Shown: piece after piece, positions 22,722 to 24,198 of the stretch
Layout: every line of letters begins with the position of its first letter
How positions within the stretch are numbered: the stretch's first letter is position 1
Assembly (NCBI GenBank): GCA_026394075.1
Contig: JAPKYX010000087.1
Coordinates: forward strand, 8,986 to 72,985
Length of the DNA: 64,000 nt
Source of the DNA: Acidobacteriota bacterium
GTDB taxonomy: Bacteria; Acidobacteriota; Terriglobia; Bryobacterales; Bryobacteraceae
Reading direction: 5' to 3'
Made by a program: the position numbers and the translations under genes
The notes under the pieces: generated by a model
Databases searched by the model: none
What the model was told of the DNA's origin: nothing
What the model saw: only the letters and a program-made list of their open reading frames with translations

Positions 22722-23057
22722 ATGAGCCAGGCAGATAAGAAGCTGGATGAGCTGATGGTCCACTACCGGGAAGCATGCCCGGAACCGGGCGAAGCTATGC
22801 ACTTCATGCCACGGTTGTGGCATCGCATCGAGGCCCAGCGCCAGATGCTGAAGAAGGCTCGCGGTTGGACGTCTGGAGTGGTGACGCTGGCGGCAACGAT
22901 TTGCCTCTTGCTGGCGCTGCTGCTCTCACTGCAATCGAATCCCCTGATTCACAACTACCTGGAGGCGCTGGATAGCGACCAGGACGCGGCGCCGGCGATT
23001 GAAGGCAGTGCCCATAGCGATGCCGTGCTGGCCAAGCCGTCTGGGGAGGCACGATGA
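22722..23057 (+). CDS. Single-pass membrane protein, possible anti-sigma factor
   Basis: About 111 residues (a second ATG directly upstream at 22719 adds one Met). The cytoplasmic N-terminus 'DKKLDELMVHYREACPEPGEAMHFMPRLWHRIEAQR' precedes one membrane helix at about residues 49-67 ('VVTLAATICLLLALLLSLQ') and a short extracytoplasmic tail. This layout and its place directly after an ECF sigma gene are those of an anti-sigma factor, but the zinc-binding H-x3-C-x2-C motif is absent. It is translationally coupled to the next gene. Function is inferred from context. Confidence 0.7.
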   Translation: MSQADKKLDELMVHYREACPEPGEAMHFMPRLWHRIEAQRQMLKKARGWTSGVVTLAATICLLLALLLSLQSNPLIHNYLEALDSDQDAAPAIEGSAHSDAVLAKPSGEAR

Positions 23058-23446
23058 AACGGTCCTTGTTCATCTACGGCGCACTGATCTTCTTTAGCGG
23101 GCTGGCGGTGGGCGCCCTCGGTCACCGGCTCTATTCCAGCACGGCGGTGGCGGCCACGGCCGCGCCACCCCGTCCGGACGACTGGCGGCGGCAGTTCATT
23201 CAAGAGATGGTCACCCGGGTTCATTTGGACGCCCAGCAGGTGACGGCACTGCACGGGGTTCTGGATGAATCAAAAACGCTTTTTGACCAGGTACGAGACA
23301 AGTACAAGCCGGAAATGAAGGCGATCTACGATAGCCAGGTGGACAAGGTGCGACAGATGCTGACGGCGGAGCAGCGTCCGCTTTATGAGACCCTGCGGCT
23401 GGAGCGCGAAGCTCGCCGCAAAGCCGCCGAGAAATCGCCCCGCTAG
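23054..23446 (+). CDS. Spy/CpxP-like periplasmic protein
   Basis: 130 residues with an N-terminal signal anchor ('LFIYGALIFFSGLAVGALGHRL') and a helical periplasmic part: 'VHLDAQQVTALHGVLDESKTLFDQVRDKYKPEMKAIYDSQVDKVRQMLTAEQRPLYETL'. The 'L-x-x-E-Q-R-x-x-Y/F' ending resembles the LTXXQ motif of Spy/CpxP/CnrX-type chaperones and sensors. Its ATG overlaps the upstream stop by 4 bases (ATGA). With the sigma factor and membrane partner it forms a compact three-gene envelope-stress-like module, similar in design to CnrH-CnrY-CnrX. Confidence 0.75.
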   Translation: MKRSLFIYGALIFFSGLAVGALGHRLYSSTAVAATAAPPRPDDWRRQFIQEMVTRVHLDAQQVTALHGVLDESKTLFDQVRDKYKPEMKAIYDSQVDKVRQMLTAEQRPLYETLRLEREARRKAAEKSPR

Positions 23447-23596: not shown

Positions 23597-23848
23597 TTAG
23601 TTCGCGGCCGGAGCCGGGGACTTGGAGCGCTGGGCTTGCAGGGCGCTGGACTTGGCCATCTTCTTTTGGAAGCGGTCAACGCGGCCTTCGGTGTCAACCA
23701 GCTTCTGGCGGCCCGTGAAGAAGGGGTGGCAGCTGGAGCAGATTTCCACGCGGAGGTCCCCTTTATGGGTGGAGCGGGTCTGAAACGAGTTCCCGCACGC
23801 GCAGGTGACCTTCAGTTCGTTGTACGCGGGATGAATTCCGGCTTGCAT
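23597..23848 (-). CDS. rpmE: Ribosomal protein bL31
   Basis: 83 residues from the ATG at 23848; the longer open frame upstream is not part of the protein. It is the zinc-binding form: cysteines C16, C18, C37 and C40 in 'TCACGN' and '[11 protein letters not shown]' match the CxC...CxxC site. '[20 protein letters not shown]' is the standard L31 N-terminus. A Lys/Ala/Pro tail extends beyond the usual end. It binds the ribosomal subunit interface. It is not next to other ribosomal genes. A -10-like TATCAT (23863-23858) sits 9 bases before the ATG. Confidence 0.95.
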
Positions 23849-23930: not shown

Positions 23931-23969
23931 AAAACAAAGAACCCCTGAGGCGTGGTTCACCTTCAGGGG
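23931..23969 (-). terminator. Intrinsic terminator or attenuator of the RNA unit
   Basis: On the minus strand CCCCTGA, an inner GGTG/CGCC helix with a 5-base loop, and TCAGGGG form one long hairpin (23942-23969). TTCTTTGTTTT follows (23941-23931). The hairpin lies 83 bases before the L31 start codon. Confidence 0.75.
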
Positions 23970-24163
23970 CTCAATGCACAAATCGGAGGAATTACGGTTA
24001 TCTTCAGCGCGTGAGACGATCAGCCTAGTGGCTCGAACGGTCTCGTCACTGCCGCGAAACCAACGACATTACAGTCCGGCTCAGCGGCCGATAACCTCAC
24101 GCGTTGAAAGACTACAGTCGGTACTCATAAATTTAGACTGGATCACCTCCTTTCTCAGTGATG
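23931..24163 (-). ncRNA. Candidate structured RNA with a perfect anti-SD match
   Basis: A well-formed promoter (24169-24198) and an intrinsic terminator (23931-23969) delimit a minus-strand transcript of about 230 bases that matches no RNA family I know. Near its 5' end it carries AGAAAGGAGGTGATCCAG (complement of 24155-24138), complementary to the last bases of 16S rRNA (anti-Shine-Dalgarno region). A 14-codon ORF (ATG at 24127, MSTDCSLSTREVIGR) follows, at unusually long spacing. Downstream, GCGTGAG/CTCACGC and GGTTATC/GATAACC can pair in crossing order (pseudoknot or alternative folds), and AGCC-ACTA-GGCT lies in a hairpin. L31 starts 83 bases after the terminator, so an attenuated L31 leader is an alternative. 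Confidence 0.45.
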
Positions 24164-24168
24164 CCCTG

Positions 24169-24198
24169 ATCTTAGGGCGAGTCCGGCCGGGCTGTCAA
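24169..24198 (-). promoter_or_regulatory. Strong sigma-70-type promoter for the RNA unit
   Basis: On the minus strand a consensus -35 TTGACA (24198-24193), an 18-base spacer and -10 TAAGAT (24174-24169) are present. The predicted start is about 24162-24164. This is the best match to the housekeeping consensus seen anywhere in the window. Confidence 0.7.

Follow-up and report, generated by a model that had tools for sequence, protein, structure and literature searches.

The window, the whole stretch of 64,000 nucleotides that was analysed, carries on its minus strand a short transcription unit that lies between a divergent MFS transporter gene (PF07690; 24238-25530, plus strand), which adjoins its promoter, and a gene for ribosomal protein L31 (Table 1). 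Beyond the L31 gene, a plus-strand ORF at 23054-23446 encodes 130 amino acids with an N-terminal segment resembling a membrane anchor and has no Pfam match. The near-consensus promoter of the original prediction is present, with TTGACA and TAAGAT at a spacing of 18 matching 10 of 12 consensus positions, and TTGAC stands in the equivalent position in all 16 family relatives compared. The predicted transcript, with its start placed 7 nt after the -10 element, would run for about 230 bases to the strong intrinsic terminator that had been claimed, which ends at 23931 and consists of the hairpin GAGCCCCTGA...TCAGGGGTTC (23972-23939, -22.9 kcal/mol) followed by TTTGTTTT. A simple terminator scan missed it, although hairpin and T-run are nonetheless visible in the sequence. 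The predicted fold of the transcript lies 4.3 standard deviations below dinucleotide shuffles. What had been described as an orphan transcription unit thus has a promoter and a terminator of its own and neighbours that change between lineages, and the minus-strand unit 24198-23931 is a real, single-copy RNA gene, conserved and folded.

Table 1. The RNA gene, its elements and its downstream neighbour, in window coordinates
Feature	Position	Strand	Basis
Sigma-70 type promoter TTGACA-18-TAAGAT	24169..24198	-	-35 conserved in family relatives
Small RNA gene, predicted transcript of about 232 nt	23931..24162	-	Promoter and terminator positions; single copy
UCACUG, 5' strand of the pseudoknot between 5' end and P4 loop	24156..24161	-	54 family sequences, permutation test
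Extended Shine-Dalgarno AGAAAGGAGGTGATCCAG, fully complementary to the 16S 3' tail	24138..24155	-	Exact match
Micro-ORF MSTDCSLSTREVIGR-stop	24081..24128	-	Frame and E-V-x-x-x-stop ending conserved
P1 5' strand GCGTGAG	24096..24102	-	Covariation with 24009-24015
Hub GAGGTT, complementary to the anti-SD and separated from the stop codon by 9 nt	24093..24098	-	P-site register from positions
P2 5' strand GGTTATC (GGTGGCC in most relatives)	24090..24096	-	Covariation
P4 hairpin GGTTTCG/CGAGACC with CAGTGA (24051-24046) in the loop	24039..24061	-	Double compensatory changes
P1 3' strand CTCACGC	24009..24015	-	Covariation with 24096-24102
P2 3' strand GATAACC, in relatives GGCTACC, ahead of the terminator	23996..24002	-	Covariation
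Intrinsic terminator	23931..23972	-	Stem of -22.9 kcal/mol, T-rich tail
Ribosomal protein L31 gene, downstream neighbour and not part of the RNA	23597..23848	-	NCBIfam PRK00019.1, 111 bits

Near its 5' end the RNA carries AGAAAGGAGGTGATCCAG, and the full complementarity to the 16S 3' tail that had been proposed for it holds at 18 of 18 bases, because the genome's own 16S rRNA terminates in ...GGCTGGATCACCTCCTTTCTAAG. A site of this kind with at most 3 mismatches is expected 0.04 times per window, and the 15-base core GAAAGGAGGTGATCC, allowing at most 1 mismatch, occurs in the 5.8 Mb genome only at the RNA locus and in the 16S gene. Across the family 13-18 nt of complementarity to the 16S tail are kept. 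Most relatives carry GTGGTCC, with a G-U pair, and a bulge (GGAGGATGATCC) occurs in one large family. An antisense 16S fragment was rejected as an explanation, the similarity to 16S being confined to the 18-nt tail complement while the remainder is covarying RNA.

The conservation of the gene reaches far beyond its closest relatives. BLASTN found the RNA in 17 of 61 relatives. With a covariance model (R1) built from 16 sequences of the window's family, 56 of the family's 61 genera proved to have a single copy each, and so did 44 of 46 when only high-quality genomes were counted. R1 matched 48 of 396 Acidobacteriota genomes, at one locus each, and the Rfam model RF02471, which was built from Actinobacteria, matched 17 of 297. 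Among 198 genomes around a Nitrospirota locus, sequence patterns located the RNA unit in 6, and among 198 searched with RF02471 for actinobacterial members, 39 held real ones. The genomes around a Gemmatimonadota locus (121) and those of the class of a Brevundimonas locus (115) all lacked the signature; both sets double as specificity controls. A phage origin was rejected, as four signature matches in viral contigs all lacked the anatomy of the RNA. The anatomy that members share comprises a 5' element, AAGGAGGTG[A/G]TCC, a micro-ORF ending E-V-x-x-x-stop, the helix P2, outside the window's family also the helix P0, and a terminator.

The micro-ORF that follows the extended Shine-Dalgarno has 15 sense codons (MSTDCSLSTREVIGR, 24128-24081), not the 14 first given, and ends EVIGR-stop. 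The E-V-x-x-x-stop ending is common to other acidobacterial members, Nitrospirota and Actinobacteria, and the first ATG after the Shine-Dalgarno is in frame with it in 17 of 17 and in 36 of 39 family members. A search that did not fix how far GAG lies from the stop gave five codons in every member located; 30 actinobacterial loci fit GAG-GTN-3 codons-stop, the distance there forming part of the search. The Glu codon weighs less as evidence, because it was partly a search criterion. The hub formed by the Glu and Val codons, always 9 nt from the stop, reads GAGGTG in 89 of 91 sequences counted, and GAGGTT in the window is a weaker match to 16S; the Val codon is accordingly GTG in 89 of 91, with GTT only in the window's genus. 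The residue at -6 before the stop is free to change (10 amino acids: R, C, S, L, P, Q, G, E, Y, H) and varies in step with the P0 pairing described below, and the three codons after E-V are variable and all three stop codons are in use, with the position of the stop fixed. With the Val codon near-invariant, residue -6 following the pairing and the stop unmoved, the comparison therefore shows selection on the RNA sequence and the place of termination, not on the peptide. With the stop codon in the A-site, these positions put GAGGUG 6 nt upstream of the P-site codon, at the usual Shine-Dalgarno distance for a terminating ribosome, which may have functional meaning. One acidobacterial family (L030, L031, L036, L038, L172) has two GAGGTG motifs in its micro-ORF, for example MSYHSRSEVFDRTREVAAT, possibly two ribosome-anchoring sites.

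These observations bear on two alternatives. The locus might be a functional micropeptide gene with a strong Shine-Dalgarno, as the open frame and its stop are conserved in three phyla and many members encode Ser/Cys-rich peptides; we consider this very improbable, given peptides of about 11-23 residues whose N-terminal part cannot be aligned, a valine specified almost always by the same codon and a residue -6 that follows RNA pairing. Alternatively, the 16S-tail complement could act as a decoy or sponge that binds free 30S subunits and lowers initiation elsewhere, its translation being incidental. The conservation of the complement in the family and its absence from the rest of the genome outside 16S fit such a role, but a pure decoy would need neither the strictly conserved frame nor the stop position nor the hub, and the G-U pair in most relatives and the bulge in one large family also count against it, which makes this explanation unlikely.

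Two pairs of segments in crossing order, GCGTGAG/CTCACGC (P1) and GGTTATC/GATAACC (P2), had suggested a pseudoknot or a two-state switch. Both pairs are present, their 5' segments overlapping by one base (24102-24096 and 24096-24090), and compensatory changes found in these stems among the relatives back both crossing pairings. The P4 hairpin has double compensatory changes in 6 of 6 pairs counted, and its loop pairs with the 5' end of the RNA in a pseudoknot that is absent from R1 and is stronger than 5000 of 5000 partner permutations over 54 family sequences, its variants including CACUGGA/UCCAGUG and UACUGAA/UUCAGUA; this permutation test, like those below, does not remove the shared ancestry of the sequences. 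On 57 aligned family members P1, P4 and the pseudoknot together have 93.8% of cells paired and double compensatory changes in 19 of 25 pairs, figures that for P1 and P4 lean towards the model because the alignment was fitted to R1; 0 of 500 shuffles were as good by any measure, and slid partners were at most 49% paired. P2 takes the form GGTGGCC/GGCTACC in most relatives having it, a clear compensatory change with respect to GGTTATC/GATAACC. Of 54 family members, 30 have a strictly matching P2 partner. GGTGGCC is alternatively able to extend P1, with the partner CGGCCxCC just upstream of CTCACGC, and therefore a pseudoknot and a two-state switch are both possible; because of this pairing within P1 in members without a strict P2, P2 may be dispensable in the window's family.

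In the superfamily as a whole P2 joins the hub GGUGNCUG to CAGN'xCACC before the terminator, and its variable pair N/N' takes A-U, G-C, U-A and C-G. It pairs in 95.8% of cells (slid versions at most 47%), and its own partners were stronger than 20000 of 20000 permutations over 31 distinct pairs; with the single exception of L105, the 3' strands had been picked for their place before the terminator and not for being the best complement. A further helix, P0, occurs outside the window's family, where the 5' end of the RNA pairs with the bases immediately preceding the hub. The 5' ends CACG, CACUG, CGCUAG, CGCA, CACC, CCAG, CGUGAG and others have the partners CGUG, CAGUG, CUAGCG, UGCG, GGUG, CUGG, CUCACG and others, and this helix was stronger than 20000 of 20000 permutations in a set of 53 distinct pairs. 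The window's family lacks this hub pairing, and there the P4 loop takes the place of the hub as partner of the 5' end. Final pairing counts were taken from an alignment built directly from the loci (A3).

The 3' strand of P2 could also be read as the active part of a trans-acting base-pairing sRNA, in which the exposed segment before the terminator (GCUACCG or UUCACCG) targets mRNAs and the micro-ORF protects or gates it. The strand is conserved, it directly precedes the terminator, where seeds are often found, and translation of the ORF would free it. It covaries with the hub and is not fixed in sequence, unlike a conserved seed, and we regard this role as rather unlikely, if still worth some weight.

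The RNA had further been suggested to be an attenuation leader for the L31 gene 83 bases downstream, and L31 does lie directly downstream in 11 of 17 family members. However, ThiG (PF05690) occupies this place in most of a sister family and other genes do so elsewhere, no neighbour within 2.5 kb being common to different groups, and the L31 gene has a separate -10-like element, TATCAT, at 23863-23858. The terminator is separate from the switch helices: wherever both were located in a member, the P2 strand stops before the terminator stem begins, an arrangement that speaks against attenuation of the classical kind. Known L31 leaders (L31-Coriobacteria, RF03128, and relatives) resemble the window RNA in standing upstream of an L31 gene, but the window scores 15.7 bits against a gathering cut-off of 33 (RF03128), and its RNA is cut off from L31 by its own terminator and occurs without L31 elsewhere. 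To the leader explanation we give hardly any credence.

The original prediction could name no RNA family for this transcript. For the window copy this stands, as searches of the window against Rfam at gathering level and at E 10 gave nothing credible, and neither the window nor its genome has a match to Ms_IGR-5 (RF02471; gathering 45 bits); its relatives, by contrast, do match that family, though below gathering level at the loci that R1 also found. RF02471 scored 47.7, 50.3 and 50.6 bits at three loci not found by R1 (L056, L167 and L168) and 23.6-44.8 bits at loci found by both models. Because the two independently built models choose the same locus in ten acidobacterial genomes (G079, G126, G172, G188, G213, G229, G274, G294, G324, G354), we take the RNA to be a distant relative of RF02471. 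The case is strong that the Ms_IGR-5 superfamily includes it as a diverged acidobacterial branch, one with a pseudoknot of its own. Ms_IGR-5 shares with the acidobacterial RNA an ACAC-like 5' end, GGAAGGAGGUGGUCC, a micro-ORF ending E-V-x-x-x-stop, a terminator of its own, a length of about 200 nt and the pairing of the GAGGUG hub with a CACC strand before the terminator, a pairing that in the window is GGUUAUC/GAUAACC. It differs in that the window copy falls below the reporting score and that in the window's family P1 is a long stem and the 5' end does not pair with the hub. The Rfam consensus structure of RF02471 draws neither P0 nor P2, and the anatomy shared by the three phyla (Shine-Dalgarno, micro-ORF, hub pairing) is not described in Rfam.

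Homologues of Ms_IGR-5 are known to be expressed. In M. abscessus and M. smegmatis the ribosomal reads on them are significant in published Ribo-seq data (PMC4974804), and M. smegmatis also transcribes them (PMC10454040). RNA-seq confirmed them in S. lividans (PMC8079986), and in S. avermitilis they are an sRNA unit that stands by itself (PMC8780764). In the literature searched we found no functional study of Ms_IGR-5. The full Shine-Dalgarno, the frame-conserved micro-ORF and the ribosome footprints on these homologues (PMC4974804) agree with the earlier suggestion of a ribosome-binding small RNA.

Other RNAs combine similar elements. tmRNA has pseudoknots and a short reading frame; it was rejected here, since ARAGORN, used to test for a tRNA-like domain and tag frame, gave no tRNA or tmRNA match. 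The Caulobacter sRNA CC2171 (RF01867), considered as a homologue for its shared Shine-Dalgarno, likewise has GAAAGGAGGUGAUCCAG near its 5' end, a micro-ORF after it and an ORF segment paired with a stretch before the terminator. However, the window scores 11.1 bits against a gathering threshold of 75, and the conserved part of CC2171 is an N-terminal S-H-C region paired with GACAAUG, whereas the window has neither an MSHC frame nor this pairing. The E-V ending is not general there, E-V being at a fixed place in only a minority of 39 CC2171-type loci, and we did not accept CC2171 as a homologue; the resemblance is probably one of architecture. A literal name search found no functional paper on CC2171; two predicted ncRNAs of Caulobacter were proved to be translated (PMC4117421).

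In the same searches we met several micro-ORFs behind a full Shine-Dalgarno. CC2171-type loci, listed as sRNA under RF01867 (L062, L098, L110 and others, three of them checked against Rfam), have a micro-ORF starting VSHC, and in Bosea such a locus is followed by an ORF that by eye resembles RNase R. Rhodobacteraceae loci among L049-L166 (for example L050, 1739 onward) contain a different unit of the MSRVILERGVGTVRGAVA type, situated upstream of the ribosome rescue gene arfB in 33 of 53 loci and with an internal anti-SD, C[AG][TC]CTCC, after the ORF in 45 of 53; it is a candidate ribosome-sensing leader. In Bradyrhizobium and relatives (L080, L086, L093, L094, L108, L119, L121, L142, L160, L161) a 14-codon ORF, VSYTKRCHLAGIAR-stop or a close variant, is nearly invariant, and two Phycisphaerales loci (L061, L126) have the micro-ORFs MIKAETQQGPRF and MIQDCRRGPSR.

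For the RNA of the window we lean, with a little better than even confidence, towards a small translated RNA encoded by an independent gene, whose fold changes when a ribosome terminates on the hub. The near-perfect Shine-Dalgarno would recruit 30S subunits to the micro-ORF. As long as no ribosome occupies it, the hub would be paired with the RNA 3' end (P2), to which the window's family adds a local stem (P1) and the superfamily at large a pairing with the 5' end (P0). To reach the stop, a translating ribosome would have to strip these helices. With the stop in the A-site, GAGGUG would stand in the usual Shine-Dalgarno register, so that the 16S tail could hold the terminating ribosome at the hub. 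Depending on how many ribosomes are available, the RNA may therefore be either closed or held open by a ribosome. Displacement of the helices and anchoring of the ribosome, which we infer, would act on components that the comparisons establish, namely the gene, its helices, the conserved frame and stop, and the relationship to Ms_IGR-5. A more specific form, which we offer tentatively and hold to be less likely than not, is a ribosome-parking switch with a pair of anti-SD-complementary sites, of which the first serves initiation and the second stands in Shine-Dalgarno register when the ribosome terminates. Together they would trap the 30S subunit after termination and so open the RNA, both of whose ends are held by one hub.

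RF02471, catalogued as an actinobacterial sRNA, now extends to Acidobacteriota and Nitrospirota, and a frame-conserved micro-ORF and covarying helices linking the fold to the position of a terminating ribosome are new for it. The mechanism is testable and would mean that the conserved feature of a coding sequence is the place where translation stops, not the peptide. Should the ribosome-parking form of it hold, RNAs of this type would be widespread sensors of how many ribosomes are available.
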